In this document: one piece after another, positions 6,400-25,307 of the stretch
Position numbering within the stretch: the first letter of the stretch is position 1
Layout of the letters: each line of letters starts with the position of its first letter
Translations under genes and position numbers: made by a program
Source of the DNA: Verrucomicrobiota bacterium
Lineage (GTDB): Bacteria; Verrucomicrobiota; Verrucomicrobiia; Limisphaerales; Fontisphaeraceae
Direction: 5' to 3'
Assembly: GCA_037139415.1 (NCBI GenBank)
Contig: JBAXGN010000074.1
Span: 1 to 33,903 of the forward strand
Length of the DNA: 33,903 bases
The notes under the pieces: generated by a model
The model's input: the letters and a program-made list of their open reading frames with translations, nothing else
Database searches by the model: none
Told to the model about the DNA's origin: nothing

Positions 6400-7208
6400 C
6401 CCTGTGCCAACTTTGGTTTAAGGTATTTCCGACAAATGGAAAATGCCAATCCACACAAAGCGAACATGGCCGCCAATACGCACCACCCACCCACCTCATG
6501 AAACCAGCCACCGGCAAATTCCGGGCCGAAGCTCAAAGCCACAACGCTGATGACCAGAACCCGGGCCGTATTCGCCACCCAGGCCAGCAAAGGCAGAGTG
6601 GCAAGACCCCACCAGTAAGTCCGGCGGCCGCCGAGTTGCAGGAAGGCCATCGTGACACCGGCGATAAGCATGGCTTGGAGCGCGCGCAAGCCTGAACAGG
6701 CGGGGGTGATATCGATGGGCAAACCTTGTACCACCAGTTGAGTGCCCTGCCGAGCAACTTCAAAGCCAACACTGTGGAAGACATGCTCCGCAGTCCAGGC
6801 AGCCGACAGCCGGCACCACCAGCCCAACTGCGGAAAGTCGAGGAGTAGCCAAGGAAAGGCCAATATTGGAAGCACCAGGAGTTGTCGCATTCGTATCCCT
6901 GAACTTAGCTCCGTGCGAGGCTGCAGCCAACTCCAAAGTGCGGCCGTCCATGAGATGGTCAGTAGCAGGGTCAGATTGGTCGCCACCCCAAGCACCAGCA
7001 TTATTCCAGCGAGCACAAGCGCGGGTGCGTGACAGTTGAGCACTTCGGTCCGGAAGCGCCATGGCGCTCCAAGCCATATAAATAAAGGCAATCCGGCCAA
7101 GATGGGAAGCGTCTCATCCGCCGCAGCTATCCAAGCAGGATCCCGCAGCCAGATAAATGCGGCAAACGCGAATAAGAGCGATAGGGCGAAGTAATCTCTC
7201 GGTTTCAT
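6396..7208 (-). CDS. xrt: exosortase (archaeosortase/exosortase family transpeptidase)
   Basis: A 270-residue integral membrane protein, predicted to cut PEP-CTERM tails and attach or release the protein at the cell surface. The signature residues are all present in the expected order: C171 in PACSGLR, R216 in NTARV and H237 in WFHEVGGW. These match the Cys/Arg/His catalytic triad of the family. About eight hydrophobic segments are visible. The likely substrate gene lies two genes upstream in the same operon. Start and stop overlap the flanking genes by 4 bases each, indicating coupled translation. The subclass (A, B, C and so on) cannot be decided by eye; EpsI is a separate protein here. Confidence 0.93.
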   Translation of the reverse strand: MKPRDYFALSLLFAFAAFIWLRDPAWIAAADETLPILAGLPLFIWLGAPWRFRTEVLNCHAPALVLAGIMLVLGVATNLTLLLTISWTAALWSWLQPRTELSSGIRMRQLLVLPILAFPWLLLDFPQLGWWCRLSAAWTAEHVFHSVGFEVARQGTQLVVQGLPIDITPACSGLRALQAMLIAGVTMAFLQLGGRRTYWWGLATLPLLAWVANTARVLVISVVALSFGPEFAGGWFHEVGGWCVLAAMFALCGLAFSICRKYLKPKLAQG

Positions 7209-9151: not shown

Positions 9152-9186
9152 GACCGTATAAACGCTGTATTCAGTGAACGTCGAGA

Positions 9187-10170
9187 TCAAATCGGGCTGA
9201 GTTGCAGAGTTTGACGGCGCTTCAACCAGACTGCAAACCCAACGAATGAGGCCATCGTGAGCCACAGTGCGGGCTCCGGCGTGCCCATGAGTTTGGCGAT
9301 ATTGGCCGCCCCGATGTCCACGGCGAAAACGACATCGTTAAAGTCCCGGTCGCCACCACCATACATGTCCTCGAAGCTGACGATGAGATAAGGGCTTTCT
9401 TTTACCGCGTAAGCGAAAGAGACGACATGGTTGATATGGTCAGTGTTTTGTGACTTGTCAGTCGAGAAGACATTCTTACCGCCATTGGCCCCGTCGGAGA
9501 TGAGAAAAAAGTCGAGTTTTGTGCCGCCAGCGAAGGTGCCAAGGTTTACGAAATCGCCGGGTAGCAACGGTTCTCTGGCTGAGCGTTTGCCGCTAGCCTC
9601 CGGGTCATAGGTTGATACCGGACTCGAAGCATCCGGGAAAATTAACCGCGGATCGCCATGGCTCACTCCGCTGCCCGCCGCATTGAATCCAAGCGTGTTA
9701 TGATACCCAGCACCTTCACCAATGAAGTACACTCGCACATCCGACTTGGTTTGCAATTGCAATTTGGAAGGGTCGAGCAGCATGGCGGAATCATTGATGG
9801 ATTTCCGTTCACTCAAACGCGTATTCACCAAATCGGTCACTGATGGTAATACCTTCTTTTGGAAATTAGCCGATGCCGTATCGGATCCAACTGCCATTAC
9901 GGGTGCGACGATATTTAAACCGAGAGGCCGGGCGCTGGATTGAACGGGTGCCGCAATGCCACCGGAAGTTGTGGAGGAACGTTTATCACCTTGTTTACCA
10001 TCGGATCCTTCACGTTCGGATGAATCGGCGAACGTGACGTTGGTTGCTGCCAACGTCAAGGTTGCCGCGAGGACGGTTGAAAAGAGGCCGGAACGGAGGT
10101 GTGTCCGGCGGGTTTGCTTCATGTTTCGTTTCATATTTCGTTTCATATTTCGTTTCATACAATAATTCAT
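9187..10170 (-). CDS. PEP-CTERM sorted surface protein with DUF4114 domain
   Basis: Up to 327 residues. A signal peptide (residues about 17-49, ending in FADSS) is preceded by an odd tandem repeat (see the repeat entry). The mature part contains a DUF4114-type domain (about 140-290) with YFIGEGAGYHNTLGF and the acidic signature FEDMYGGGDRDFNDVVF, which is likely to bind Ca2+. The C-terminus has PEP at 298-300, a hydrophobic helix and a basic tail (WLKRRQ), which is a complete exosortase recognition signal. It is the first gene of the sorting operon and the only PEP-CTERM protein in the window. Its start is uncertain: in-frame ATGs lie at 10170, 10158, 10146, 10134 and 10122, and no good Shine-Dalgarno sequence favours one. 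The proposed sigma-54 start site near 10174 would favour a start inside the repeat or at 10122. Confidence 0.9.
   Translation of the reverse strand: MNYCMKRNMKRNMKRNMKQTRRTHLRSGLFSTVLAATLTLAATNVTFADSSEREGSDGKQGDKRSSTTSGGIAAPVQSSARPLGLNIVAPVMAVGSDTASANFQKKVLPSVTDLVNTRLSERKSINDSAMLLDPSKLQLQTKSDVRVYFIGEGAGYHNTLGFNAAGSGVSHGDPRLIFPDASSPVSTYDPEASGKRSAREPLLPGDFVNLGTFAGGTKLDFFLISDGANGGKNVFSTDKSQNTDHINHVVSFAYAVKESPYLIVSFEDMYGGGDRDFNDVVFAVDIGAANIAKLMGTPEPALWLTMASFVGFAVWLKRRQTLQLSPI
10123..10158 (-). repeat. 12-base tandem repeat encoding (MKRN)x3 at the gene start
   Basis: Three head-to-tail 12-base units, ATGAAACGAAAT or ATGAAACGAAAC on the minus strand, each begin with an ATG in the reading frame. 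They are followed by a further related unit, ATGAAGCAAACC (10122-10111). A change in copy number would keep the frame but add or remove start codons and positive charges ahead of the signal peptide. Confidence 0.85.
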
Positions 10171-10296: not shown

Positions 10297-10331
10297 TTGC
10301 ATTAAAACTCATTTTGCATTACTGTTGCATT
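10297..10331 (+). promoter_or_regulatory. three TTGCATT boxes before the sigma-54 activator
   Basis: TTGCATT occurs at 10297-10303, 10314-10320 and 10325-10331; the last copy is part of the palindrome TTGCATTGCAA (10325-10335), four bases before the activator ATG. Relative to the minus-strand sigma-54 start they lie about 123-157 bases upstream, the usual distance for activator sites. The same heptamer recurs before the chain-length gene near 31250. They may bind the activator itself; this is not demonstrated. Confidence 0.45.
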
Positions 10332-10339
10332 GCAAACGC

Positions 10340-11761
10340 ATGATAAAAATCCTTTATCCCGGTGAATGCCCGGACGACTTTGTCGCGCGTCTAAAGCAGC
10401 TCGGATTTCCCGCGCATACTTTTACTGCCGGGGAAGTAACCGAACTGACGACGGAGACAGCGGAAGTAGTCTATGTGCTCCCGCACCAGGCTATGAGTTT
10501 GGACTCGTGGCCCCGCCTGCGGGTGCAACTTGCGCAGGCGAATCGTCTTTACATTGCAGTCATTGAGAAAGCGTCCACTGCCGAAGTGGCACGTTTCTTG
10601 CGGGATGGCGCCTATGATGTGCTCGCAATGGAAGACAACGATACGCGCTGGCGCGAGGCGCTCATGACCGCGTCAGGCAATCAACAACTCTGGATTCAGC
10701 TCTATGGCGGGCGACCGCTTTCGTCGGAAGATATTCTGAGCGGCCGCTCCGAATCCATTCTGCGCTTACGACAGACGATTGACCGGCTTGGCCCAACAGA
10801 TGTATGTGTGCTGATCCAGGGCGAATCCGGCGTGGGCAAGGAGCGGATCGCTTCCGCGTTGCACAAGGCGGGGCACGGGAAAAGCTTTGTCGCGCTGAAC
10901 TGCGCGGCCATTCCGAAGGACCTGCTGGAATCCGAGTTGTTCGGGGTGGAGAAAGGCGCTTTCACCGGCGCCATGAGAGCGCGGGCCGGGCTGGTGGAAC
11001 AGGCTCAGGGCGGAACACTTTTTCTCGACGAAATCGGCGAAATGGATATTAGCGTGCAGCCGAAACTGCTGCGGTTCCTCGAAACCCGCTGCGCGCGGCG
11101 CGTGGGCGGAGAGAAGGAGTACCAGGTCAAGTTACGGGTGATCTCGGCCACCAATCGCAACCTCGATACGGAAATTGCGGAGAAACGTTTTCGTGCCGAC
11201 CTCTTTTACCGACTCGCGGAAATCACGCTCCATGCACCGCCGTTGCGGACCCGGCCCGAGGATGTCCCCGAGCTGGCCCTGAACTTCATGCGCAAGGCCA
11301 ACGAGCGGTTTGGCAAGAACTTCGAGACCATCGAGCCGGCGATGATTGAAAAATTTCAACTTCACACCTGGCCCGGCAATGTGCGTGAATTGAAAAGCAC
11401 GGTGGATCGCCTGGTGTTGCTGTTTGACGGGTCCATATTGCGCGCACCGTGGTGGGACGTCCCGGAAACCCGCGTGCCGCAAGCGACGGGGTTCGCGTCC
11501 ATGCCCGTAATGGAAGCCAGCAGCGTTTCAACGCAGAGTTCACCCGCCGTGCCAATCCCCGAGGCGGTGCATGCGGCACCCGTAACTTCCGCGCTGGGGG
11601 TGTACACGCACGGCATGGGAATCCCGAACCATAAACAGAAACTGGTGATTGCCAGACGACTCATGGAGGAAAGCGGCAACAACTTCAGTTGGGTTGCGGG
11701 GCAATTGGGCATTAACGTTACCACGCTCTGGCGTTGGCGCAAAACCGGCAAACTCGGATGA
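10340..11761 (+). CDS. sigma-54-dependent transcription activator with receiver-like N-terminus (PrsR-like)
   Basis: A 473-residue enhancer-binding protein from the ATG at 10340; an upstream in-frame TTG at 10325 lies inside the TTGCATT palindrome and is less likely. The AAA+ core is intact: Walker A GESGVGKE (161-168), the sigma-54 contact motif GAFTGA (206-211), Walker B GGTLFLDEIG (224-233) and an arginine-finger region FRADLFYRL. The C-terminus (about 430-473) is a Fis-type helix-turn-helix. The first ~110 residues have the outline of a receiver but lack its acidic pocket: strand 3 reads VVYVLPHQ with no Asp, and the usual conserved Lys region reads DVLAMED. It is therefore unlikely to be switched by aspartate phosphorylation. 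In PEP-CTERM systems of proteobacteria the analogous regulator is PrsR; here the position suggests the same job. Confidence 0.93.
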   Translation: MIKILYPGECPDDFVARLKQLGFPAHTFTAGEVTELTTETAEVVYVLPHQAMSLDSWPRLRVQLAQANRLYIAVIEKASTAEVARFLRDGAYDVLAMEDNDTRWREALMTASGNQQLWIQLYGGRPLSSEDILSGRSESILRLRQTIDRLGPTDVCVLIQGESGVGKERIASALHKAGHGKSFVALNCAAIPKDLLESELFGVEKGAFTGAMRARAGLVEQAQGGTLFLDEIGEMDISVQPKLLRFLETRCARRVGGEKEYQVKLRVISATNRNLDTEIAEKRFRADLFYRLAEITLHAPPLRTRPEDVPELALNFMRKANERFGKNFETIEPAMIEKFQLHTWPGNVRELKSTVDRLVLLFDGSILRAPWWDVPETRVPQATGFASMPVMEASSVSTQSSPAVPIPEAVHAAPVTSALGVYTHGMGIPNHKQKLVIARRLMEESGNNFSWVAGQLGINVTTLWRWRKTGKLG

Positions 11762-13205: not shown

Positions 13206-14593
13206 CTGCCGACAAACAACCAATCACCACGGGTGGCCAAATCGGGCCAGAGTTGCCACTGGCTGGGGAAATGAACCCGCGCGTCCCGGCTGGAGCCCGC
13301 CAGCTCCGAGTCCTCCTGCTGGCCGAGTCGGCCAACCCGAAGCTGTACAGCGTTTCGCTGATCGGCTGGAGTTTCGCGCGAGCACTATCCCACGTTGCCG
13401 ACGTACATCTGGTCTCCGAGCTACGCAACCGAGAAGACATTCTGGCGGCTGGTGTTGCGGGGATGGAATTCACCGCCATCAACAACCGCCGGTGGCAGGG
13501 GTTGGCCTGGAACATCGCCCGATTGCTGCGCGGCGGCACGTCGCTGGGTTGGTCCACGTATTCAGGGCTGGCGACGCTGGTCTATCCATTTTATGAGCGC
13601 GAAGTCTGGCGCGTTTTCGGCTCACGACTGAAGCGGGGCGAGTTTGACTTGGTGCATCGGGTAACGCCCAACGCTCCGGTGACGCCCAGCCTGCTTGCAA
13701 AGCGGTGCGCGGACATCGGGGTGCCATTCGTGCTTGGCCCAATCAATGGGGGAGTGCCATGGCCAAAGGATTTCACCCATCTGCGACGGGCTGAACGCGA
13801 TTGGCTGAGTCCCTTGCGTGGTTTATCCCGGTATCTGCCTGGCTATACGGCCACCCGCCGCTATGCGGCGGCCATCCTGGTGGGAGCCCGTAGCGCCTTG
13901 GCGGAAATGCCCGAACGGTATCACGCAAAATGTGTTCGGCTTTCCGAAAATGCGATTGACCTCGACCGTTTTCCGCGTTGCGCGCCTCCCGCGCTGGCCA
14001 AGCCATTGCGGGTCGCCTTTGTGGGGCGTCTGGTCCCGTTGAAGGGTGTGGATATGCTGATCGAAGCCGCCGCGCCGCTGGTGCGCCAGGGACAAGTCAA
14101 TCTGGATATCATTGGCGACGGCCCGGAGTTGCCGCGCCTCAAACTGCTTTGCGAAAAACTCGGGATCACCGGCGGGGTGGAATTTCCCGGTTGGTTGGAC
14201 CATTCCCAGATTACCGGGCGCCTGGGCCGGGCGAACGTGCTCGGTTTTCCCAGTGTGCGTGAATTTGGTGGCGGTGTGGTTCTTGAGGCGATGGCCTTGG
14301 GGGTTGTGCCCATTGTCCTTGACCATGGCGGTCCGGCCGAACTGATTCCGCCGGGCGGCGGCTTCGTCCTGCCCATGGGCTCCCGCGCCAGTCTGGTACA
14401 CCAGTTCGGGGTAACCCTTGCCAACCTGGCCGCCGCCCCTGAGCAACTTCGTGTACTGGCGCGGTGCGCCCAAGACCATGTGCATCAGCATTACACGTGG
14501 GCAGCCAAGGCCAGCCAAGTTTTAGAAGTTTATGATTGGGTGTTGGGCCGGCGTGCTGACAAACCGAATTATTCTTTTACACCTCATGAATGA
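13202..14593 (+). CDS. glycosyltransferase family 4
   Basis: A 463-residue GT-B-fold sugar transferase. The N-terminal half contains LHRVTPNAP-like and FVLGPINGGVPWP segments, as in GT4 enzymes of EPS loci. The C-terminal half has VAFVGRLVPLKGVDMLIEA, the donor-binding start of GT4, and the retaining-enzyme EX7E motif in REFGGGVVLEAMALGVVP. The first ~30 residues are a Pro/Gly-rich tail before the fold starts at LRVLLLAES. The gene starts within the stop of the ligase-like gene (ATGA), and its end overlaps the next start by 8 bases. Sugar specificity is not readable. A cytoplasmic, membrane-associated role in assembling the repeat unit is expected. Confidence 0.88.
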   Translation: MTADKQPITTGGQIGPELPLAGEMNPRVPAGARQLRVLLLAESANPKLYSVSLIGWSFARALSHVADVHLVSELRNREDILAAGVAGMEFTAINNRRWQGLAWNIARLLRGGTSLGWSTYSGLATLVYPFYEREVWRVFGSRLKRGEFDLVHRVTPNAPVTPSLLAKRCADIGVPFVLGPINGGVPWPKDFTHLRRAERDWLSPLRGLSRYLPGYTATRRYAAAILVGARSALAEMPERYHAKCVRLSENAIDLDRFPRCAPPALAKPLRVAFVGRLVPLKGVDMLIEAAAPLVRQGQVNLDIIGDGPELPRLKLLCEKLGITGGVEFPGWLDHSQITGRLGRANVLGFPSVREFGGGVVLEAMALGVVPIVLDHGGPAELIPPGGGFVLPMGSRASLVHQFGVTLANLAAAPEQLRVLARCAQDHVHQHYTWAAKASQVLEVYDWVLGRRADKPNYSFTPHE

Positions 14594-15482
14594 AACAACT
14601 CCAAACTCGCATTCCAAACCAGCCCGGGCAACGCTCCTCTGTCCAACGGACCAGTCCGTGCTGCCGACGCTGTCCCGCCAGTGTCCGCTTCCGCTTTTGC
14701 CGGCCTTGGGCGACACTTTGCTCGGCCATGCCATTGCTTTCCTGGCCGCCCAAGGAGTTCGCGAGATCTGCATTGTTGCCAGCGACCGCACGGACCAAAT
14801 TCGTGCCGCGGTGGGACGTGGCGAACGTTGGGGGGTGAAGCTGGAAGTAACCTCCAGCCCACGCGACCCGGTCGCCCAAGACGCTTCGACCGCTCCGCTA
14901 GTATTGCTGCTGGATCGCCTGCCGCAGGTGCCCGAGCAGCCGCTGTGGACGTCCTACTCGGCGTGGTTTGACGCGTTGCTGACGTTAATGCCACTGGTCG
15001 CGCGTGAACGCGTTGGGATGCGCGAAATCATGCCAAACGTTTTCGTGGGTTTGCGTTCGCAAATTGCCGGCGATGCAAAGCTCATTGGTCCTTGTTGGAT
15101 TGGCGCAAACGCAAATATTGGTGCGCGCACAGTCATCGGCCCCAACGCCATCATCGAGGACGGGGTTGTCCTGGACGAATCCGCTGAGGTGGTCCACAGC
15201 ATCATCGGGCCGCAAACCTACGTGGGGATAATGACGGAGGTGCGACATTCGTTTGCCTGGGGGCGCAACTTGACGAACCTGCGCAATGGTTCACAGATTG
15301 AAATCGTTGACCGTTTCCTGCTGGACGACCTTGCCAATTCGGCATCACGGCAATCGAGCGGCCAGCCAGGGTGGATGGCGAAGGTGCTTCGTCGGCTGCG
15401 GCGGGCGATTTCAGCCCCGTTTAACGGTTTCACCAGTTTGGCGATGCCGGTTTGCATCGCCGCCGGAATGGCACTTAAATAA
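14586..15482 (+). CDS. degenerate nucleotidyltransferase-like protein with hexapeptide (left-handed beta-helix) repeats
   Basis: A 298-residue protein from the ATG at 14586; the longer frame overlaps the GT4 gene. The N-terminal ~110 residues follow the layout of sugar-1-phosphate nucleotidyltransferases (CPLPLLPALGDTLLGHAIAFL and GVREICIVASDRTDQI). The family's GxGTR catalytic loop is missing: that place reads ATLLCPTDQSVLPTLSR. Residues about 155-240 are hexapeptide repeats (AKLIGPCWIGANANIGARTV, then VVLDESAEVVHSIIG), similar to GlmU or GDP-mannose pyrophosphorylase tails. A positively charged C-terminus with a hydrophobic end follows. It is probably not an active NTP transferase; it could be a regulatory or scaffold subunit, or bind a nucleotide sugar. 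Confidence 0.7.
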   Translation: MNETTPNSHSKPARATLLCPTDQSVLPTLSRQCPLPLLPALGDTLLGHAIAFLAAQGVREICIVASDRTDQIRAAVGRGERWGVKLEVTSSPRDPVAQDASTAPLVLLLDRLPQVPEQPLWTSYSAWFDALLTLMPLVARERVGMREIMPNVFVGLRSQIAGDAKLIGPCWIGANANIGARTVIGPNAIIEDGVVLDESAEVVHSIIGPQTYVGIMTEVRHSFAWGRNLTNLRNGSQIEIVDRFLLDDLANSASRQSSGQPGWMAKVLRRLRRAISAPFNGFTSLAMPVCIAAGMALK

Positions 15483-15538: not shown

Positions 15539-15841
15539 ATGATAACACAAGCTCAGGGAAACTCGCTACGGATGCGCTGCCCCGGCGAGTTGAATGCCGC
15601 AAACGCCGCCGCATTTCGCGACGAAGCGCGCGCAGCAATCACCGGAACGGTCACCACGCTTGATATTGATCTATCAACGACCACGTTCGTGGATAGCAGT
15701 GGCTTGGGGTCGCTCATTGCCCTGCACAAAACCATGGCCACCCGAGGTGGCGTCGTACGGCTTCTGACGCCCACCGCCACCGTATATCAAATCCTGGAAC
15801 TGACCCGCCTTCAGCGCGTCTTTGAAATCGTCAAAAACTGA
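15539..15841 (+). CDS. STAS-domain protein (anti-sigma-factor-antagonist type), first copy
   Basis: A 100-residue single-domain STAS protein of the SpoIIAA/RsbV type. The phosphorylation site is intact in VDSSGLGSL (D52, S53, S54, G55); in SpoIIAA and RsbV the serine right after the aspartate is phosphorylated by the partner kinase. The C-terminal helix (LELTRLQRVFEIVK) is typical. Such proteins switch partners between a kinase and a target according to phosphorylation state. The start at 15539 follows a gap of 56 bases from the previous gene. It is the first gene of the four-gene regulatory cassette. The target is unknown; no sigma factor or ordinary anti-sigma factor is encoded in the window. 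Confidence 0.92.
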   Translation: MITQAQGNSLRMRCPGELNAANAAAFRDEARAAITGTVTTLDIDLSTTTFVDSSGLGSLIALHKTMATRGGVVRLLTPTATVYQILELTRLQRVFEIVKN

Positions 15842-15855
15842 AATAACCTGCGAAC

Positions 15856-16173
15856 ATGAAGACTGAGAATATGACAACTGAAACCTGCGGGGACATCTTG
15901 CTTGTCACCGGTCTCGACCGGCTAAGTGCGACTAATGCCATGCTCTTCAAGGAAGTAACGCTGGCTCAGCTTGCCGCCGAACATCGTTTTGTGGACGTGG
16001 ATGCAACGGGGATCAGTTTCATTGACAGCGATGGCTTGGGGGCGTTGATTGCCGTGCAACGACGGTTGACTCCCCGTCAGGGGCGTGTGCGTCTGCTGCG
16101 GCCCCAGGTGATGGTGCTGCAATTGCTGGAATTACTGCGCATGGAGCAGGTTTTTGACATCGTCAAACATTAA
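15856..16173 (+). CDS. STAS-domain protein, second copy
   Basis: A 105-residue STAS protein, clearly paralogous to its upstream neighbour: both have xDSxGLG, LLRP/LLTP before the last helix and a C-terminus of the form VFEIVKN/VFDIVKH. The site reads FIDSDGLGAL (D57, S58, D59, G60). The phosphorylatable serine is kept, but the next residue is Asp instead of Ser/Thr. That may shift the kinase or phosphatase preference between the two copies. An internal ATG at 15871 is an alternative start. The gap to the kinase-phosphatase gene is only 6 bases. Confidence 0.92.
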   Translation: MKTENMTTETCGDILLVTGLDRLSATNAMLFKEVTLAQLAAEHRFVDVDATGISFIDSDGLGALIAVQRRLTPRQGRVRLLRPQVMVLQLLELLRMEQVFDIVKH

Positions 16174-16179
16174 CCTTCG

Positions 16180-17970
16180 ATGGAAAACGTGCTGGCCATA
16201 TCCAATCGCTCGATGACGATACGGGTTGCGTGCGAGCTGCAGGTCGTGCGTGGCCTTTGCCGGAAGGTGCGTGAATTTCTGGCGGATGCCGGGCTCAGTG
16301 CGGACGAACTCAACCCTTGGGAACAGACCCTCGCTGAGGCCGTCAATAACGCTATCCTATACGCCCCGCCAGCTTCAAAAAACCTGCCGGTGCAAACCAA
16401 TATCACCGTAAGCCAGACCCTCGTTGAGGTGCGGATTAGTGATCACACCGCCGGGTTTGATTTTCCCCAAAACGCGGTGCTGCCAGAGCCGGATGCTGAA
16501 TCAGGACGCGGGCTGTTTATGATCCAAAGCCTGACGGACGAAGCGATTTACCTGCGCGGACGAGGTGAGAACTGCCTGGTGCTGAGGAAACACCGTAACC
16601 TTGGTTCCCGACTTTCAGAATCGGCTGATGACTCCCGCCAGGAACTTGAGGAAACTCGCCACACATTGGACTTGATGACCGAAGAATTGGCATCCTCCTA
16701 TGAGAGTTTGGCGGCGATTTTCCAATACAGCGCCGAGCTATCCACCAACGTCTCCTCGCACGACTTTACGCGTCGCTGGCTGGACCAGTTGCTGACCATT
16801 ATCGGGGCCGACTGGTATCTATTGCGGCTGTTGAGCCCGGACGGCAACCACCTGTGCGTGGCGGCGACGTCACTACCTGGCTGGCAAGAGCACGTGATTC
16901 CGCTTGCCTCCTCCCCGGACGCTCCCTGCCTGGAACAGCGGGCCATTCATCAGCACCGGGATGTATGGTTCGATGACGCCACGCCGTTGCATCATGCCGA
17001 CCCGCTGGCTACCGTCGGGCAACCGGCGAGCGGCTTTGCACACCCGATCGTCGTCAATGGAACTCCGGTCGGGGTGCTTACGGTGGCTTGCGGAACGGGA
17101 ACCCGCATGGCGGAAGCCGGCAACATCAATATTATCCATACGTTCGCGGATTTTTTGGGAATTCAGGTGCGCAATGCGCGATTTGCCGAGGAACAGGTAC
17201 GCACCCGATTGATGTCACGCGAGATGGAAATCGCCACGAATATCCAGCGCTCGCTCCTGCCCGAACGGATGCCGAATCTACGGGGATTTGGCATGGCTGG
17301 GCATTGCCGTAGCGCCCGCCAGGTGGGTGGTGATTATTACGACGCGATTGTCACCGGCGAAGGGCAATTGCTGCTCGTGGTGGCCGATGTCATGGGGAAA
17401 GGCCTTCCCGCCGCGATATTCGCCGCGATATTTCGCAGTCTGGTGCGGGCACGGTTGGATCTCGCGGCAAAGCCGGGAGAATTCCTGGTTTGGCTGAATC
17501 GCAACCTCGGCGCCGACGTAGGGCGGGTGGATATGTTCATCACGGCCCAACTCGCCTTTGTGGACTTGAACCAACGGCGGCTGCGCGTTGCCGGAGCTGG
17601 CCATCCACCGTTGCTGCTCGCGGGCCAGGATGGTTCCTGCGAGGCGCTTGAAAGCAGCGGTCCGCCACTCGGTGTGCTGATGCAAAAAGAGTACGGAGAT
17701 ACGGAACGGATCCTTCCGCACGGCGCCCAAGTATTCCTTTTCACCGATGGGCTAAGCGAGGCGCGCGACCCGGCAGGCGAACTGCTCGGCGTGCCCAGAC
17801 TGATCCACTGGTTGCAGGAGCAGGCATGCCGCCAGCAGCCGGTTGGGCAGACACAGCAAAACTTGCTCGCCATGCTGGAGCAATTTGAGCAGGGGACGCT
17901 ATCCGGGGATGACCAGGCGTTTGTCCTGCTGGCCGAGGAACCCGTAACTTCCACTAACCATGCCTCATAA
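16180..17970 (+). CDS. bifunctional HATPase kinase - GAF - PP2C (SpoIIE-type) phosphatase
   Basis: A 596-residue soluble regulator joining both enzymes of a partner switch. Residues 10-137 are an RsbW/SpoIIAB-like GHKL ATPase: N-box E53-A-V-N56-N57, G1-like D88-HTAG92 and G2 SGRG (108-111). A charged coiled coil (about 145-185) leads to a GAF-like sensor domain (about 190-340; GFAHPIVVNGTPVGVLTVAC). Residues 345-590 form a PP2C/SpoIIE phosphatase with the RSLLPERMP lead-in, metal-binding GGDYYD (383-388) and ADVMGKG (402-408), then FTDGLSEARD and a final GDDQAF. It should phosphorylate and dephosphorylate the STAS proteins encoded just before it, with the GAF ligand setting the balance. The arrangement recalls SypE, which controls syp polysaccharide in Vibrio fischeri through the STAS protein SypA, but SypE has a receiver where this protein has GAF. 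Confidence 0.92.
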   Translation: MENVLAISNRSMTIRVACELQVVRGLCRKVREFLADAGLSADELNPWEQTLAEAVNNAILYAPPASKNLPVQTNITVSQTLVEVRISDHTAGFDFPQNAVLPEPDAESGRGLFMIQSLTDEAIYLRGRGENCLVLRKHRNLGSRLSESADDSRQELEETRHTLDLMTEELASSYESLAAIFQYSAELSTNVSSHDFTRRWLDQLLTIIGADWYLLRLLSPDGNHLCVAATSLPGWQEHVIPLASSPDAPCLEQRAIHQHRDVWFDDATPLHHADPLATVGQPASGFAHPIVVNGTPVGVLTVACGTGTRMAEAGNINIIHTFADFLGIQVRNARFAEEQVRTRLMSREMEIATNIQRSLLPERMPNLRGFGMAGHCRSARQVGGDYYDAIVTGEGQLLLVVADVMGKGLPAAIFAAIFRSLVRARLDLAAKPGEFLVWLNRNLGADVGRVDMFITAQLAFVDLNQRRLRVAGAGHPPLLLAGQDGSCEALESSGPPLGVLMQKEYGDTERILPHGAQVFLFTDGLSEARDPAGELLGVPRLIHWLQEQACRQQPVGQTQQNLLAMLEQFEQGTLSGDDQAFVLLAEEPVTSTNHAS

Positions 17971-18331
17971 AATTCTCATCGCGGATGACGAACCGCACAT
18001 GTTGCGGTTAATCGAAGTCAGTTTAAGAAAAGGCGGATTTCAGATTGTTCAAGCCCGGGATGGCCGCGAGGCGGTGGCGGTTGCCATCCGGGAAAAACCG
18101 GACTTGGTGGTCATGGATCTCGTCATGCCTGAACTGGATGGTTTTGCCGCGTTGCGCGAACTAAAGCTCAACGCGGATACCGCCCACACGCCCGTCATCC
18201 TGTTAACGTCACGCGGCCAGGCCATCGTCCGCGAGGAAGCGGAACGCTCGGGGGCGGCGCTTTATCTGCAAAAGCCGTTTTCGCCTGCTCAATTACTCGT
18301 CGAGGCTAAACGGCTACTCGGGTTGGCCTGA
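17960..18331 (+). CDS. stand-alone receiver (CheY-like response regulator)
   Basis: A 123-residue single receiver domain. All conserved residues are present: acidic pair D9/D10, phospho-acceptor D53 in VVMDLVMPELDG, T83 in LLTSRG and K105 in LQKPFSP. No output domain is present, so it must act by protein contact. It overlaps the kinase-phosphatase gene by 11 bases, which argues for a shared function, for example as an input to the phosphatase. No histidine kinase is encoded in the window, so its phosphodonor is unknown. Confidence 0.93.
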   Translation: MPHKILIADDEPHMLRLIEVSLRKGGFQIVQARDGREAVAVAIREKPDLVVMDLVMPELDGFAALRELKLNADTAHTPVILLTSRGQAIVREEAERSGAALYLQKPFSPAQLLVEAKRLLGLA

Positions 18332-18391
18332 CCGGTTTACCGCCGCCAATCCATGCCGGACAGACATGATTAAAATACTGTATTTTTGACC

Positions 18392-19579
18392 ATGAAACCA
18401 TTTCTTCCAATTTTCATCATGATTGATGCCATGGGGTGGGAAATTTTGCAGGCGAATCGGTTTGCCACGGATTTCCTGCCGACGCGCAAGCGTTTGGACT
18501 CGGTCTTTGGCTACAGTTCCACCTGCGTGCCGTCCATCCTCAGCGGGCATTGGCCCGATGAGCACCGAAATTGGTGCTACTTTGTGCATGATCCAGCCCA
18601 CTCGCCCTTTCACAATCTTCGCTGGCTGCGCTGGTTGCCGACCGCCATCACCGGCCGGCGGATATTTCGTCGTTGGCTTACAAAATTGGTGAAGCGGCAA
18701 CTTGGTTTCCGCGGTTACTTCGACCTTTACAACATCCCTTTCCACCACATTGATCGTTACGACTTTACCGAGAAAAAAAGTCCGCTCCAACCCGGCGGCA
18801 TGAATCGCGGTGGCAACATCTTTGATCTCCTGGTGGCGCAGGGGACGCCCTACTTTGTGAGCGATCCGGCGAAGACGGAGGAGCAGAATCGCGATGCGCT
18901 GGCCGCCCGGTTGCGCAACGGCGACGTGGACTTCGCGTTCATGTATTGGGCGGGGCTTGACGGATTGCTCCACAACGTCGGCAACGACTCGCCGAAGGTG
19001 CAGGAGAAATTGAGCGTTTACGAACAGTGGATCCAGCAGCTTCTCGCCATCGCGCGGGAACAGTATGCGGAAGTGCAACTCTACGTCTTCAGCGACCACG
19101 GCATGGCGAATTGCGACGTGCATCTCGATCTCAAATCACGCATTGATAAATTGCCTGTGCGGGTGCAACACGACTATGCGGTGGTCTATGACTCCACCAT
19201 GGCGCGCTTCTGGTTCTTCAATGAGCACGCCCGTCAACTGATCACCACCGAACTGCGCCAGACGCCCCAGGGGCGCATCATCCCCGATGCGGAGCTGCAA
19301 AGTCTTCACACGCTCTTTCCCGACCGCTATTTTGGCGAACTGATCTTCCTGGTGCAGGAAGGTGTGCTCATCGTGCCGAGCCACATGGGTGAACGCCCGA
19401 TCCGGGCCATGCATGGGTATCACCCTTCCGATAAGCACAGCTACGCGAGCCTGCTGACGAATCAACCGGGGATTCCGGATAATATTACCGCTATTCCGCA
19501 CATCGGCGACCTGATGAAGGATGCCGCGTATATTACCAAGCAACGCAATCATCCACCCACTTTATCCCTGCACGCATGA
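18392..19579 (+). CDS. alkaline-phosphatase-superfamily phosphodiesterase-like protein
   Basis: A 395-residue enzyme from the ATG at 18392; the frame also contains a TTG at 18386. Metal-binding features of type I phosphodiesterase/nucleotide pyrophosphatase enzymes are seen: D12 in FIMIDAMGW, a likely threonine nucleophile T44 in YSSTCVPSILSGHWPDEH, the FSDHGM motif and a late HGYHPSD. No signal peptide or membrane anchor is apparent, so it appears cytoplasmic. It could hydrolyse a nucleotide sugar, a lipid-linked phosphate or a phosphodiester decoration of the glycan; the substrate is not evident. It follows the receiver after a 60-base gap and overlaps the methyltransferase gene by 4 bases. 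Confidence 0.85.
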   Translation: MKPFLPIFIMIDAMGWEILQANRFATDFLPTRKRLDSVFGYSSTCVPSILSGHWPDEHRNWCYFVHDPAHSPFHNLRWLRWLPTAITGRRIFRRWLTKLVKRQLGFRGYFDLYNIPFHHIDRYDFTEKKSPLQPGGMNRGGNIFDLLVAQGTPYFVSDPAKTEEQNRDALAARLRNGDVDFAFMYWAGLDGLLHNVGNDSPKVQEKLSVYEQWIQQLLAIAREQYAEVQLYVFSDHGMANCDVHLDLKSRIDKLPVRVQHDYAVVYDSTMARFWFFNEHARQLITTELRQTPQGRIIPDAELQSLHTLFPDRYFGELIFLVQEGVLIVPSHMGERPIRAMHGYHPSDKHSYASLLTNQPGIPDNITAIPHIGDLMKDAAYITKQRNHPPTLSLHA

Positions 19580-20337
19580 CCATGATTACTTCCACGGAAC
19601 AGCCCACTCTCTTTGAACGCACACTGCTCTTTCAACTGTGGACGGATTTTCGTACTCGGTGGCGGTTTAAGTTCACCCTGCCGCGAGTCCGCACCGTCAC
19701 GTTGGAAGGCGTGGAACTCGACGTCTCGATGCTGTCGTCGTTGATGAAGAATAATCTCCTGCTTGGGCGCTACGAAGTGCAGGAGCGCATGCTCACGCAG
19801 CAGGTTTTGACGCGCGACGATACCGTGCTCGAAATTGGCGGTGCCATTGGCTTCATTGGTTTGTTCTGCCAGACGCGCCTCGGGATTACGCGTTATACGA
19901 CAGTTGAGGCAAATCCAGGCACCGTCGAACTGCTGAAGCGGAATTACGCGCTTAACCAGCGGGTGCCGGTCGTCTGGAATATGGCGCTTGCCGCCGCGGA
20001 TGGCGAAGTCACGTTAAACATCGGCAACGAGTTCTGGGAGAATTCGCTGGTCGCCGGCGCGAACAGTGGGCGCTCGGTGCGCGTCCCGGCCGCGAGCCTG
20101 GCCAGTCTGGTCGGTCGCCTGGATTACGCCCCGACGGCCCTCATCGTGGACATCGAGGGTGCCGAGCAATTTGTGGACTTCCGCCAAGTGCCGCCCAGCG
20201 TGAAAAAAGTCATCATCGAGTTGCACCCGCACTGCATCGGCCACGCCAAGACGTATCAAATAGTCGCTGACTTTGTGAACCTCGGTTTTCACGTAGAACG
20301 CGAAGAGGGGGGAACATTTCTCTTCCTGCGCCCATGA
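19576..20337 (+). CDS. FkbM-family methyltransferase
   Basis: A 253-residue SAM-dependent O-methyltransferase-like protein. The SAM-binding motif I is VLEIGGAIGFIGLF, a slightly varied E.G...G. The following acidic strand reads YTTVEANPGTVELLKRNYALN. The family's C-terminal DIEGAE motif is present (LIVDIEGAEQFV), and a later ELHPH segment is typical of FkbM proteins. FkbM members methylate hydroxyl groups in antibiotics and in glycans; within an EPS locus, methylation of a sugar residue is the natural guess. The start is the ATG that overlaps the previous stop by 4 bases, although an in-frame ATG at 19582 exists. It ends in a 4-base overlap with the next GT4. Confidence 0.9.
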   Translation: MTMITSTEQPTLFERTLLFQLWTDFRTRWRFKFTLPRVRTVTLEGVELDVSMLSSLMKNNLLLGRYEVQERMLTQQVLTRDDTVLEIGGAIGFIGLFCQTRLGITRYTTVEANPGTVELLKRNYALNQRVPVVWNMALAAADGEVTLNIGNEFWENSLVAGANSGRSVRVPAASLASLVGRLDYAPTALIVDIEGAEQFVDFRQVPPSVKKVIIELHPHCIGHAKTYQIVADFVNLGFHVEREEGGTFLFLRP

Positions 20338-21620
20338 GGGAGACCCTGAATAACCGTATCGTGCATGTGCCCCGGCGTTTTGTGGCCGAAGAATGGGGCG
20401 GGACCGAAACCGTTATTCTGGAAATTTCCCGGCAGCAGCAACAAGCCGGGGAGAGCCCCGAAATTCTCACGTCCATGGCCTTGGCCAAGCGACGGGAGGA
20501 AGAGATTGGCGGAGTGCCGGTAAGACGTTTTTCCTATTCGTATCCCTACTTCGGCCTGAGCCAGGCGGACCGCGCAGCGATGGACAAGAAAGGCGGTAAC
20601 TTGCTTTCGCTTTCCTTGTTCGCCTCGCTGCTCACGCGGCCGAACGTCCGGCTTTTCCACGCTCATACTCTCAAGCGGCTTGGCGGCGAAGTGCTCACCG
20701 CCGCGCGGTTGCGCCGGAAACCGTTTGTGGTGTCGTTGCACGGCGGGGTGTTCGATGTGCCCTCTGCCGAACTCCAACAGTTGATCGCACCCATCCAAGG
20801 CAAACTGGAATGGGGCAGGATTTTCGGCGCGGTCTTCGGCTCGCGGCGGGTTCTGGAATCGGCAGACCAGGTGATTTGCGTGGGCCAGAGCGAAACAGCC
20901 AAAGCGGCGGAGCAAATCGGCCACGACCGCGTCGCTTACCTGCCCAATGGTGTGGATTGCACAAAGTTTGCGACGGGGGACGGTGTGGACTTCCGTCGCA
21001 AGCACAGTATTCCGGCTGGCGCGTTGCTAGTGCTCAACATCAGCCGCATTGACGCCCAAAAGAACCAAAGGCTGCTGCTCGAGGCGTTCGCCTGTTTCCG
21101 CGCCCGGCAGGCAAACGCATTTCTGGTGTTGATCGGTCCGGAAACGCAACCGGAGTACGCCGCCAGCCTCCGCGAATTCATTGCCACCAGCAATCTTGGC
21201 GACTGCGTGCGGATGCTGCCCGGTTTGCGCAATGACAGTGCCGATCTGGTTAATGCCTATCACGCCAGCGATGTATTTGTGCTGCCCTCACGGCACGAGC
21301 CGTTTGGCATCGTGGTCCTTGAGGCGTGGAGTGCGGGGCGTCCGGTCATCGTGAATCACGTCGGCGGTCTTAAAGCGCTCGTGCGTCATGGGGGAAATGG
21401 CTTGTTCATCAATCCAGCCTCCGAAGCGACGACGCTGGACCTGGCCGAGCAACTCCAATTGCTCGCCACCGCACCTGCCTTGCGCCAGAAACTCGGCCAC
21501 GCCGGACGGGACGAAGCCCGCTCGCACTATGACTGGAGTCGGATCGCGCAGAAACTCGAAGATCTTTACCAGGCAGCGGAGCGTCATGCCGCGTGTCGTT
21601 ACGGACGGAGGTCTGCATGA
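20334..21620 (+). CDS. glycosyltransferase family 4
   Basis: A 428-residue GT-B sugar transferase. The N-terminal Rossmann half includes FHAHTLKRLGGE and VVSLHGGVFDVPS. The donor domain starts at LLVLNISRIDAQKNQRLLLE and holds the EX7E pair in RHEPFGIVVLEAWSAGRP. There is no membrane anchor. It begins in a 4-base overlap with the methyltransferase and ends in a 4-base overlap with the flippase gene, whose Shine-Dalgarno (GGAGG, 21607-21611) lies inside this coding region. It presumably adds one sugar of the repeat unit; which one is unknown. Confidence 0.9.
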   Translation: MRETLNNRIVHVPRRFVAEEWGGTETVILEISRQQQQAGESPEILTSMALAKRREEEIGGVPVRRFSYSYPYFGLSQADRAAMDKKGGNLLSLSLFASLLTRPNVRLFHAHTLKRLGGEVLTAARLRRKPFVVSLHGGVFDVPSAELQQLIAPIQGKLEWGRIFGAVFGSRRVLESADQVICVGQSETAKAAEQIGHDRVAYLPNGVDCTKFATGDGVDFRRKHSIPAGALLVLNISRIDAQKNQRLLLEAFACFRARQANAFLVLIGPETQPEYAASLREFIATSNLGDCVRMLPGLRNDSADLVNAYHASDVFVLPSRHEPFGIVVLEAWSAGRPVIVNHVGGLKALVRHGGNGLFINPASEATTLDLAEQLQLLATAPALRQKLGHAGRDEARSHYDWSRIAQKLEDLYQAAERHAACRYGRRSA

Positions 21621-23179
21621 ACTACGCGGAGGTGAAGCGCAACATTTGGAGTAACTCGATCTCAAACTATATCCGCACGGTGGTCGGCATGGCCGTGGGA
21701 TTACTCACGTTTCGCATGCTCTACCAGGCGCTTAACAAGGAACAGTTCGGCTTCTGGTCGCTGCTCTGGAGCGTGTTTGGCTACGGCATTCTGCTCGACT
21801 TTGGGTTTGGCTTCGCCGCGCAGAAGCGGGTCGCCGAGTTGTCAGTCAAACAGGATTGGGCCAAGCTTAGCCGCGTGTTGAGCACCATTCTTTTCTTCTA
21901 CACCGGCGTGGCCGTATTCATCGCGCTGATCGTCCTGGTTGGTTCGACGCACATTGTGGGCTGGTTTGGGGTGTCCCCTCAGAATGCGGAAGAGTTCCGG
22001 CGCATCCTCGTGGTCTTCTTTGTCGGGATTGGCATTGCTTTTCCGATGGGCATCTTTCCGGAAATTCTCCGCGGCCAGCAACGCATCCGCCTCGTCAACA
22101 ACCTCATCTCCGCCGCGCTCGTGCTGCGCCTCGGGTTGATCGCCTGCGCGGTCTGGTACAAGTGGAGTTTCATGGCGGTGATGTTCATTGCACTGGTCTT
22201 TGCACTCATACCAGATTGTCTGGCCGCCTTGCTCGCGCTGCGGTGGATGCCGGCCGTGCGACTGAGCCCGCGTCTATTTTCGCCCGCATTGATGCGCGAG
22301 ACCATGTCATTTTCCATCTTTGCCTATCTTGGCACGGCCACGAATATCGTGCTGGGAAAGACCGATCAACTGGTGCTTGGCGCGACGCTTTCGATTAGCG
22401 CGGTGGCGTTATACCAGGCCGGTGCCAAGATTGCCGAGGTTTTCAGCCAGTTTACCCGACAGGTACAGGATACGCTTTCGCCCGCCGCCGCGCACCTGCA
22501 TGCCATCGGCGACCGTGCGGCCCTGAGCGACCTGCTCGTGAACAGTATGCGCTGGAGCGTGCTCATCGCCACACCGTTGTATTTGCTCTGCGCGTTTTAT
22601 CTCGATGAATTGCTGCAACTACTCACCGGCGACCGGCTCATCGCCCGTGAGACCTACCTGGTCGGTCAGGTGTTGCTGCTATGGTTTTATACCACCATCC
22701 TCACGCACAGCGTATCGAAACGCATCTTCATGATGTGCGGCCACGAGCGCCGCCTGCTTTGGCTTGGGCTGGGTGAGGCGATCGCCAATCTGGCGCTCAG
22801 CGTTACGCTCGTCCTCATTTTCCGTAACGTCGCCGCGGTGGCAGTTGGCTCACTTATTCCCACCCTTTACTTCGGCTGGGTGCATCTCTGGCCGTGGATG
22901 GCGCGCGAGGCTGGAATGCGCGGGTGGCAACTTTTCTCGCGCACGGTGTTGCCGTCGTGGGCGGCCTGCGTGCCGATGCTGGTGGTGCTGGTCGCATTTC
23001 AGTTTGTAACGCTGGCCCCCGGCGGCAAGGCAGTGGTGGCAATGTTCATTGAGTCAGCGATCGCCGGGCTGGTCGCGTTGGTGGGTCTTTGGCGCATCGC
23101 CCTGAATGTAAACGAGCGGGAACAGCTTGCCGTGAAATTTTTCGCAAAATTCCCGCGGCTGCGGAAACAACCGGTATGA
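21617..23179 (+). CDS. wzx: Wzx-type polysaccharide flippase (MOP superfamily)
   Basis: A 520-residue polytopic membrane protein with twelve or more hydrophobic helices, fitting lipid-linked oligosaccharide flippases. The start is the ATG at 21617 with a strong Shine-Dalgarno GGAGG at 21607-21611; the longer frame from 21593 would overlap the GT4 by more. Characteristic features are the N-terminal NIWSNSISNYIRTVVGMAVG, a mid-protein GKTDQLVLGATLSISAVALY segment and basic loops between helices. It would move the undecaprenyl-linked repeat unit to the periplasmic face for the ligase/polymerase-like protein. Sequence alone does not separate Wzx from related PST transporters, but the context supports the flippase call. 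Confidence 0.85.
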   Translation: MNYAEVKRNIWSNSISNYIRTVVGMAVGLLTFRMLYQALNKEQFGFWSLLWSVFGYGILLDFGFGFAAQKRVAELSVKQDWAKLSRVLSTILFFYTGVAVFIALIVLVGSTHIVGWFGVSPQNAEEFRRILVVFFVGIGIAFPMGIFPEILRGQQRIRLVNNLISAALVLRLGLIACAVWYKWSFMAVMFIALVFALIPDCLAALLALRWMPAVRLSPRLFSPALMRETMSFSIFAYLGTATNIVLGKTDQLVLGATLSISAVALYQAGAKIAEVFSQFTRQVQDTLSPAAAHLHAIGDRAALSDLLVNSMRWSVLIATPLYLLCAFYLDELLQLLTGDRLIARETYLVGQVLLLWFYTTILTHSVSKRIFMMCGHERRLLWLGLGEAIANLALSVTLVLIFRNVAAVAVGSLIPTLYFGWVHLWPWMAREAGMRGWQLFSRTVLPSWAACVPMLVVLVAFQFVTLAPGGKAVVAMFIESAIAGLVALVGLWRIALNVNEREQLAVKFFAKFPRLRKQPV

Positions 23180-24051
23180 GTACTCCCATCGTCAGTATCA
23201 TCATGCGCAGCTACAACGAGGCTTGGGCCTTGAAGGAAACACTGCCCGCCCTTCAAGCCCAGGAATACCGGAACTGGGAGTTGATCGTCATTGATAGCGG
23301 CAGCACGGATGGCTCCCAGGAACTTATCCGCGCCGTTCAACCCGCGCATTTCATTCAAATCACTCCGCAGGAATACAACCCCAGCCGCGTGATGAATCAG
23401 GGGATGCGCCTCGCACAGTCCGAGTTTGGCATCTTCCTTAATGCCGATGCTACGCCGCAGGGAACTCACTGGTTACAGCCCTTGGTGGGGACACTCCAAA
23501 ACTGCCGGGTTGCCGCCTGTTTCGGACGTCAGATTCCCCGTCCGGATTGTCAGGCGGTATTCGCCTGTGACTATGAACGCTGTTTTGGTCCAAACCGTGA
23601 ATCCGTCAACTGGGAACATTTCTTCAGCATGGTTAGCAGCGGTCTGCGCAAAGATGCGTGGGCTAAGCGCGGGTTCCGCGAGGACCTGCAATACGCCGAG
23701 GACGACGAATACACGCGCTGGTGCAAGGCCCAGGGTTATGAGGTGGTTTACGTGCCGACGTCGGTGGTCATGCACTCGCACAACTACACGCCGCAGCAAG
23801 CCTGGAAACGCAGCTTTGGCGACGCCCGGGCCCATGGTAAATCATGGTCCGGCCGCCCGGGGGAATTCAATTGGTTGAAGACGGTCGCATTCGGCTGGCT
23901 GAGCGATGTGCTTCACGACGCCAAATTCTGTGCCCAAACGCGACGCCTGCGCGAGCTTCCGCACGCCGCCCGCATACGCTGGCAGCAGCGGTGTGGCAAG
24001 CTGGCCGGGTTCCGTCAGGGCTGGGCTGAGGCCAATGGAGGTGAACGATGA
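23176..24051 (+). CDS. glycosyltransferase family 2
   Basis: A 291-residue GT-A enzyme from the ATG at 23176, which overlaps the flippase stop by 4 bases; the frame is open to 23089 but would run into the flippase. Motifs in order are VSIIMRSYNEAWALKETLPAL, VIDSGSTDGSQEL, the metal-binding region FLNADATPQ and the acidic YAEDDEYTRWCKAQG. Its C-terminus (HSHNYTPQQAWKRSFGDARAHG) resembles rhamnosyltransferase-like GT2 enzymes. No membrane helix is seen. It probably transfers one sugar in the repeat unit. The next gene's Shine-Dalgarno (GGAGGTG, 24038-24044) lies in its last codons. Confidence 0.9.
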   Translation: MSTPIVSIIMRSYNEAWALKETLPALQAQEYRNWELIVIDSGSTDGSQELIRAVQPAHFIQITPQEYNPSRVMNQGMRLAQSEFGIFLNADATPQGTHWLQPLVGTLQNCRVAACFGRQIPRPDCQAVFACDYERCFGPNRESVNWEHFFSMVSSGLRKDAWAKRGFREDLQYAEDDEYTRWCKAQGYEVVYVPTSVVMHSHNYTPQQAWKRSFGDARAHGKSWSGRPGEFNWLKTVAFGWLSDVLHDAKFCAQTRRLRELPHAARIRWQQRCGKLAGFRQGWAEANGGER

Positions 24052-25307
24052 GAATCCTGACCGTATCCAATCTCTATCCACCCCACTACGTGGGCGGCTA
24101 TGAGCTGATCTGCTCAACCATGGTGCAAGCGCTGCGCGCTCGCGGTCACACCGTTCAAGTGCTGACGTCCAATCACGGGGGCGAAGCGGCGGCCACCATT
24201 TCAGGCGAGCAAGGAGTGACGCGCACCTTGCGCATTCACGGTTTTTTTGGTCATCCATGGCTCGGCATTCGCAAACTACGCGAATTGGAATGGCATAATA
24301 ACTGCCAGTTGCGTGAAGCCGTGGCTGGCGTTAAACCTGAGGTTGTTTACGTTTGGAATCTTGGCGGCCTCTCGAAATCCCTTTGCCTCACCCTTCAAAA
24401 TCTGGGTGTGCCGGTTGTTTATTCGGTCTTCGACCACTGGATTGCGCGCAGTCTGGTCGCGGACGTATGGCTCGACTGGTGGAATCGGGAACACCTAACT
24501 CACGCCGCCCGCTTGATGCGTTACTGGTGGACCCTTACGGGTGCGCGGCGGCGTTGGAGCCGGGTTGCGCCAACGAATTCCGTTCGCGACATTCGGTTCC
24601 CCCGCATCCATTTTTGCAGCCGCGCGCTCCGCGAGATAACCGTTGCGAAAGGATATGCCGTCCAACATGGCGAAGTCATTTACAGCCCAGTTGATACCGC
24701 CCGATTTGATGGTCAGCCAGCTCCCGCTTCACAAGCGTTGCGCAAGCTGCTGTACGTCGGCCGACTGGCAGAAGATAAAGGCGTGATGACGGCGCTCAAA
24801 GCCATGGCCACAGTGCAGGGCAAATTTCCCGGCGAGCTGCACATCTGCGGCAAAGGTGACGCCGAGTACACCGCCATGCTGACAAGGTTCGTCGAACAGC
24901 ATCGCCTCCCGGTTTTCTTTCACACCGCAACTGCCGCCGATATGCCAGCGGTCTATCATAAGCACGATGCGCTGCTCTTCACTTCCGAATGGGAAGAACC
25001 GTTTGCGCTCACTCCACTCGAGGCCATGGCCAGTGGACTCCCGGTCATCGGGACTACGACCGGCGGCAGCAAGGAACTGTTCGTTCATGGCGACAATGCC
25101 TTGACCTACCGTGCCGGTGATGCGGATGAACTCGCCACGCGCATCCTTGAACTGGCGGCCGATCCGATCCGCCGACTGCGGCTCGCGACCCATGGCCATA
25201 CCGAAGTACGCTCCCGGTTTGCTGAACCGGTCATCGTTAGCCAAATTGAAAACTATCTTTTAGCAAGCGTTAGCGCTACCGTTTCCCGAACGGCAGCCAC
25301 AGTTTAA
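24048..25307 (+). CDS. glycosyltransferase family 4
   Basis: A 419-residue GT-B sugar transferase. The start (MRILTVSNLYPPHYVGGYE) is a textbook GT4 opening with the glycine-rich acceptor loop. The donor half contains LRKLLYVGRLAEDKGVMTALKAMA and the EX7E pair in WEEPFALTPLEAMASGLP, followed by TTTGGSKELF. The start overlaps the GT2 stop by 4 bases and is preceded by an excellent Shine-Dalgarno (GGAGGTG at 24038-24044). It is the last gene of the run before an intergenic gap with a sigma-54 promoter. Specificity is unknown. Confidence 0.9.
   Translation: MRILTVSNLYPPHYVGGYELICSTMVQALRARGHTVQVLTSNHGGEAAATISGEQGVTRTLRIHGFFGHPWLGIRKLRELEWHNNCQLREAVAGVKPEVVYVWNLGGLSKSLCLTLQNLGVPVVYSVFDHWIARSLVADVWLDWWNREHLTHAARLMRYWWTLTGARRRWSRVAPTNSVRDIRFPRIHFCSRALREITVAKGYAVQHGEVIYSPVDTARFDGQPAPASQALRKLLYVGRLAEDKGVMTALKAMATVQGKFPGELHICGKGDAEYTAMLTRFVEQHRLPVFFHTATAADMPAVYHKHDALLFTSEWEEPFALTPLEAMASGLPVIGTTTGGSKELFVHGDNALTYRAGDADELATRILELAADPIRRLRLATHGHTEVRSRFAEPVIVSQIENYLLASVSATVSRTAATV

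Follow-up and report, generated by a model that had tools for sequence, protein, structure and literature searches.

The window analysed here is one whole contig of 33,903 bp (G000:C74, G000 being the window's own genome) from a Verrucomicrobiota bacterium, and it carries an exopolysaccharide (EPS)/exosortase locus. Inside the presumed EPS/exosortase operon, at 15539-18331 on the + strand, Pfam places two STAS proteins, a kinase-GAF-phosphatase protein (KGP) and a receiver (REC), encoded head-to-tail, as an earlier note on this DNA had described. We propose, with a probability of roughly 0.6, that these four genes form a partner-switching signal unit which is dedicated to the surrounding EPS locus and acts post-translationally, most likely via a WecG/TagA/CpsF-type (GT26) glycosyltransferase to which two STAS domains are fused. 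The basis for this proposal is the domains themselves, their catalytic residues, the layout of the operon, wide synteny, co-occurrence of cassette and fusion, their linkage in one family, and the lack of an evident sigma partner. The components concerned are as follows.

15539..15841, + strand: STAS_A, a stand-alone STAS protein of 100 amino acids with the motif D-S-S-G, belonging to the core of the cassette (Pfam STAS, E 3.7e-16).
15856..16173, + strand: STAS_B, a second STAS protein of 105 amino acids, a lineage-specific extra copy, motif D-S-D-G (Pfam STAS, E 5.5e-10).
16180..17970, + strand: KGP, 596 amino acids (Pfam HATPase_c_2 9.8e-18, GAF 3.9e-5 and SpoIIE/PP2C 7.9e-42, all in one open reading frame, ORF).
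17960..18331, + strand: REC, a single-domain receiver with its phospho-acceptor Asp present, overlapping KGP by 11 bp and conserved beside it (Pfam Response_reg 2e-26).
28276..29835, + strand: WecG/TagA/CpsF (GT26) glycosyltransferase with C-terminal STAS domains at residues 300-386 and 425-514, the candidate effector (Pfam).

The sequence of STAS_A matches the structures of SpoIIAA, RsbV and TM1442, and a serine follows the Asp of the motif D-S-[S/C/E/N]-G, as in SpoIIAA and RsbV, in 33/33 aligned homologue rows. STAS_B is found in some relatives only, where its motif is mostly D-S-E/D-G. The idea that STAS_B is inactive through its D-S-D-G motif was considered and rejected: comparison with SpoIIAA and RsbV (in which we take the residues to be Ser58 and Ser56, respectively) puts the phospho-serine at the first Ser after the Asp, and this residue is present. 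KGP consists of an RsbW/SpoIIAB-like serine kinase (residues 21-137), a helix (149-187), a GAF domain (199-329), a linker helix (313-359) and a SpoIIE-type PP2C phosphatase (394-584). In a comparison with 21 homologues, 39-52% identical to the window protein, both the N and G boxes of the kinase (E53, N56-N57, D88, G92 and G109-R110-G111) and the metal-site motifs of the phosphatase (G383-G384-D385, D403, D523-G524 and D577-D578) are invariant. The AlphaFold model of KGP (pLDDT 83) gives Foldseek matches to RssB, SiaA, Rv1364c and SpoIIE phosphatases, and its pTM of 0.50 makes the relative placement of the domains uncertain. The phospho-acceptor of REC is kept in nearly all relatives. At three loci (L074, L075 and L088) the receiver beside KGP is divergent, and in one of these it is without the phospho-acceptor Asp; a C-terminal KPFSP motif is kept in all three, which suggests a binding role.

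The four genes follow one another at spacings of 14, 6 and -11 bp, and the cassette lies within a run of abutting + strand ORFs that extends from a sigma-54 activator (10325) to the glycosyltransferase (GT) gene GT4e (31022), with every intergenic gap at or below 62 bp. It is plausible that this run is one transcription unit. A scan for promoters gave fewer sigma-70-like sites than shuffled sequences did and is not informative for this organism. The cassette is flanked by genes for a hexapeptide/nucleotidyltransferase-like protein and a phosphodiesterase-like protein, followed by glycosyltransferases, Wzx and Wzz, and in all the window contains Wzy, Wzx, Wzz and at least seven glycosyltransferases besides the GT26 enzyme with its two STAS domains.

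The cassette is widely conserved in this class of soil and water bacteria, which has received little study. In a survey of 145 other genomes of the order (draft genomes, some of them incomplete), a full-length or contig-split KGP was found in 38; the named relatives are Verrucomicrobia subdivision 3, Pedosphaera, Opitutaceae, Spartobacteria and Chthoniobacter. The usual unit is STAS-KGP-REC, and most relatives have a single STAS gene. We therefore rejected tandem STAS genes as a hallmark of the cassette: the two copies emphasised in the earlier note are indeed present in the window, but the second is optional, and the pair is not what has been conserved. Dozens of genomes share the gene order, and this recurrence, together with the invariant catalytic motifs of KGP, means that the cassette is more than a chance arrangement. 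The typical setting is [hybrid histidine kinase]-GT4-uridine-kinase-like-PGT-nucleotidyltransferase-STAS-KGP-REC-PDE-FkbM-GT4-Wzx, where PGT is the initiating sugar transferase (PF02397) and PDE the phosphodiesterase-like protein; the kinase was HNOBA-type where tested.

Contexts, assigned by hand from tblastn maps, are EPS at 24 of the 38 order-level loci, a sigma-54 activator plus hybrid kinase at 5, elsewhere at 7 and undetermined at 2. Among class-level loci outside the order, 17/21 have an EPS context, 15 with a PGT in the neighbourhood and 2 beside the WecG-STAS fusion and a sigma-54 activator. The cassette is thus not chiefly a neighbour of sigma factors away from EPS loci, and the expectation in the earlier note that its output is the EPS machinery is strengthened, both by these contexts and by the presence of the cassette in 25/33 of the genomes with the fusion. 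On a tree of 67 sequences the EPS context is clustered, requiring 11 changes compared with a mean of 16.5 after shuffling (0/500 shuffles as low), and the non-EPS placements are scattered. This fits an old EPS association with later relocations, although it is suggestive only, the root being arbitrary. The same tree bears on the idea of the cassette as a general signalling unit, trapped in an EPS locus but with its targets elsewhere, for example in motility or second messengers. The scatter of the non-EPS placements, two of which are beside flagellin-like genes (L045:549-2528 and L129:92-898, judged by eye from the sequence), would suit such a unit, but no other placement on the tree comes close in frequency to EPS, which is also seen again in distant members of the class, and 0/7 of the non-EPS cassettes are in genomes with the fusion, so that we regard this explanation as very improbable.

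The domain families of the cassette are those of RsbV, RsbW and RsbU, switch proteins with which bacteria commonly govern sigma factors, and could therefore point to canonical partner switching, in which the kinase domain of KGP would be an anti-sigma factor and the STAS proteins would release a sigma factor. No sigma factor is present in the window, as the earlier note had observed, and at the loci read no sigma gene is a recurrent neighbour of the cassette. In the window's own genome, a 98%-complete draft, KGP is the only strong match to HATPase_c_2 (68.8 bits, the next being 31.8), and five of the weaker matches proved on inspection to be histidine kinases. Four proteins of this genome have a sigma70_r3 domain: RpoD, and three of approximately 335 amino acids with a region-1.2-like segment, which makes them group-2-like. 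These group-2-like factors could in principle serve as partners, but no SigB/SigF-type (group 3) sigma factor was seen in the draft, the sequences being judged by eye. With KGP as the sole RsbW-like kinase identified and no factor of the SigB/SigF type seen, a sigma-factor output is unlikely. Furthermore, KGP is a fused kinase-phosphatase, as is SypE of Vibrio fischeri, in whose system the STAS protein is the downstream component. Overall we consider the canonical arrangement improbable. The remaining STAS proteins of the genome are two SulP transporters and the product of one unrelated STAS gene on contig C73. The last of these lies near a sigma factor and was considered as a possible anti-sigma locus; it was rejected, as the intervening ORFs (by eye) include no RsbW-like kinase and the STAS domain is of an unrelated type.

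Within the window the only other STAS domains are those of the GT26 fusion, again in agreement with the earlier note. It has the GT26 fold and the conserved active-site region. The AlphaFold model of the fusion (pLDDT 86, pTM 0.84) matches TagA with a TMt of 0.94 and RsbV/SpoIIAA with about 0.8. TagA and TarA themselves have no STAS domains; in the model the STAS pair follows helix 260-291, the segment that corresponds to the TagA C-terminal appendage. In TagA enzymes this appendage switches the protein between an inactive cytosolic dimer and an active membrane monomer (PMC6493773). A DS[T/S]G motif is conserved in both fused STAS domains, the phospho-serine being present in 31/33 fusions for the first and 28/30 for the second, and these serines are among the most conserved residues of the two domains.

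The fusion or a clear orthologue is found in 33/145 genomes of the order (in G139 the match ends at the contig end, before the STAS part). Twenty-five genomes have both KGP and the fusion, 13 have KGP only, 8 the fusion only and 99 neither, giving an odds ratio of 24 (p=4e-12), a calculation that ignores kinship and the co-transfer of large EPS loci. The fusion accompanies 19/24 cassettes in EPS context, 5/5 beside a sigma-54 activator and hybrid kinase and, as noted, none of those elsewhere (EPS versus elsewhere, p=3e-4). In three genomes of the class-level family f65 (G148, G155 and G163) the fusion directly follows KGP-REC, in a consecutive same-strand series STAS-STAS-KGP-REC-WecG-STAS-STAS-sigma54 activator, with a PGT ahead in two of them; in G260 KGP, REC, a STAS gene and the fusion lie side by side. 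G128 has an isolated STAS gene (L251:13787-14098) directly upstream of the run of genes from PDE to the fusion, and its KGP and REC, with a STAS gene of their own, are at another locus. An absence of the cassette from loci with the fusion, which the earlier note had named as an argument against its reading, is therefore not what is seen.

Several observations weigh against this proposal. The glycosyltransferase core is better conserved than the STAS domains fused to it; 8 genomes have the fusion but no KGP, and in 5 of these no RsbW-like kinase was found; 5 cassettes in EPS context are in genomes where no fusion was found (some of the drafts being incomplete); and 7 order-level cassettes lie outside EPS loci. 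As the fusion-only genomes show, the STAS domains of the fusion can have a use that does not involve KGP. We do not claim that the fused phospho-serines are lost where KGP is missing, the trend being weak (the serine or the whole second STAS domain is lost in 3/8 fusion-only genomes). One fusion-only genome (G119, locus L258) has a separate cluster of a REC/phosphatase gene, an RsbW-like kinase gene and a STAS gene, which could substitute for KGP.

A rival reading is that EPS is controlled through another effector: the STAS protein would act on the sigma-54 activator, on PGT or on the nucleotidyltransferase, and the fused STAS domains would have a structural role in oligomerisation or membrane positioning. 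PGT and the nucleotidyltransferase are the most constant neighbours of the cassette, distant class members included, and the sigma-54 activator adjoins the cassette in five genomes of the order, while in family f65 it adjoins the fusion; the five genomes with a fusion and no RsbW-like kinase point in the same direction. However, Pfam gives no STAS or HATPase domain in any of these proteins, whereas two STAS domains, their phospho-serines conserved, are present in the fusion. We consider another effector unlikely, though less so than a sigma factor, and rank the candidate targets with the GT26 fusion first and the sigma-54 activator second.

For the cassette as a dedicated EPS switch, the following mechanism can be suggested. 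The N-terminal kinase domain of KGP would phosphorylate the stand-alone STAS protein or proteins at their conserved serine, and the C-terminal PP2C domain would remove the phosphate. The balance between the two activities would be set by the GAF domain, acting through the long linker helix, and by the separate receiver, which probably receives its signal from a hybrid histidine kinase. The STAS protein, in one or other phosphorylation state, would then act on the EPS machinery at the post-translational level. As effector the WecG/TagA-type enzyme, with its two STAS domains and intact phospho-serines, is the most likely; these fused domains would either bind the switching STAS proteins or be themselves substrates of KGP, and a STAS-STAS or STAS-kinase contact at the C-terminal appendage would alter the membrane docking and activity of the enzyme. 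The stronger form of this idea, namely that a polysaccharide glycosyltransferase is the direct output of STAS partner switching, with KGP and the STAS proteins gating the membrane-active state of a WecG-type enzyme via its tandem STAS domains, and so controlling EPS at the level of the enzyme, without a sigma factor and across the class, is put forward tentatively, with slightly less than even confidence.

The other features of the window that surround the cassette and the fusion are listed here.

4483..10170, - strand: divergent exosortase arm, comprising a GT2, an EpsI-like protein (DUF3485), a small ORF, the exosortase, a TPR protein and a DUF4114 protein (Pfam, NCBIfam).
10325..11761, + strand: sigma-54 (AAA+) transcription activator (Pfam Sigma54_activat; synteny in f65 as above).
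14532..15482, + strand: nucleotidyltransferase/hexapeptide-like protein, the upstream neighbour (Pfam Hexapep/LbH), which adjoins the cassette in most EPS-context loci.
18386..19579, + strand: PDE, type I phosphodiesterase/nucleotide pyrophosphatase-like, the downstream neighbour (Pfam PF01663), 60-77% identical beside REC/KGP in many loci.
20334..25307, + strand: EPS genes 3' of the cassette, encoding a GT4, the Wzx flippase, a GT2 and a GT4 (Pfam); the ORFs overlap or abut.
29832..31022, + strand: GT4e, directly after the WecG-STAS fusion, also in the relatives read (Pfam, synteny).

The rest of the common locus, comprising the HNOBA kinase, GT4, uridine-kinase-like protein and PGT, is on contig C8 of the window's genome (L317:5890-13911, approximately 65.9-73.9 kb), where a break of about 2 kb splits the kinase match between query residues 611 and 618; an insertion may be the cause. 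At one locus (L076:11205-14543) the hybrid histidine kinase beside the cassette has HNOBA (heme-NO-binding-associated), PAS and GAF domains, two receivers and an Hpt domain, and related kinases are present at L047, L053, L058 and L310. The Syp pathway of V. fischeri takes input from the NO-controlled HahK as well, and the input to the two systems may thus be similar. A recurrent ORF that by eye resembles a DHH/inorganic pyrophosphatase adjoins REC at three loci (L076:20566-22293, L088:13566-15200 and L093:195-1916), and lies between REC and PDE wherever PDE is present.

The locus offers a concrete candidate for the target of a STAS protein in a polysaccharide pathway, namely a glycosyltransferase that itself contains STAS domains. 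The locus also indicates that partner switching has long regulated surface polysaccharide across this class of Verrucomicrobiota, and that it was not copied from the sigma-factor circuits of sporulation and stress. A STAS-glycosyltransferase fusion is already known at least once, in all4160; the new elements here are the occurrence of the cassette across the class, the way in which it is anchored to the initiating enzymes, and the link between it and a GT26 enzyme with tandem STAS domains.

Rv1364c of Mycobacterium tuberculosis contains a fused STAS domain and has a sigma factor as its output. Like KGP, it combines RsbU and RsbW domains in one protein (3ke6), but with the phosphatase ahead of the kinase. 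The PEP-CTERM system PrsK/PrsR/PrsT resembles the present case in that an exosortase/EPS locus encodes a sigma-54 activator together with a TPR protein; the paper on it does not use the terms STAS, anti-sigma or phosphatase, and in its Table 1 Verrucomicrobium spinosum is without PrsK/R/T (PMC1569441). The best NCBIfam match of the sigma-54 activator in the window is PrsR, at 275 bits, below the cut-off of 502.6. A search of the available literature found no paper joining a STAS domain with exosortase, nor one joining a STAS domain, a glycosyltransferase and WecG.

In cyanobacteria, HmpU/V/W of Nostoc punctiforme is similar in that a STAS protein, a kinase and a phosphatase are encoded in a motility and polysaccharide locus, the target of HmpV being given as unknown; it differs in that kinase and phosphatase are separate proteins, the setting is hormogonium development, and no glycosyltransferase-STAS fusion is described there (PMC8256260). 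The same review describes all4160 of Anabaena as a glycosyltransferase-STAS fusion needed for the heterocyst envelope polysaccharide, but with a single N-terminal STAS domain, and states no link to a kinase/phosphatase cassette (PMC8256260).

The SypA/SypE system of the V. fischeri syp locus, which the earlier note had aptly chosen as a precedent, also combines a STAS protein, a fused RsbW-like kinase/PP2C phosphatase and a receiver in a polysaccharide locus (PMC10120452). Its control is exerted below transcription, the unphosphorylated STAS protein is the active downstream form, the kinase/phosphatase answers to the receiver, and the target of SypA is stated as unknown (PMC10120452). The difference in domain layout was also correctly given in the note: SypE is a kinase-REC-phosphatase, whereas the protein here is a kinase-GAF-phosphatase with REC as a separate gene. 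In addition, Syp has one STAS protein, compared with one or two here, and the phylum is different. The Syp regulator SypG is of the sigma-54 type, and we know of no STAS-fused glycosyltransferase in syp. The cassette described here shares with Syp a stand-alone STAS protein with a phosphorylatable serine, a single RsbW-like kinase plus PP2C protein, and a polysaccharide locus with a sigma-54 activator, and because its receiver is not inside the kinase-phosphatase we class it as a Syp-like variant rather than as a member of the Syp family.

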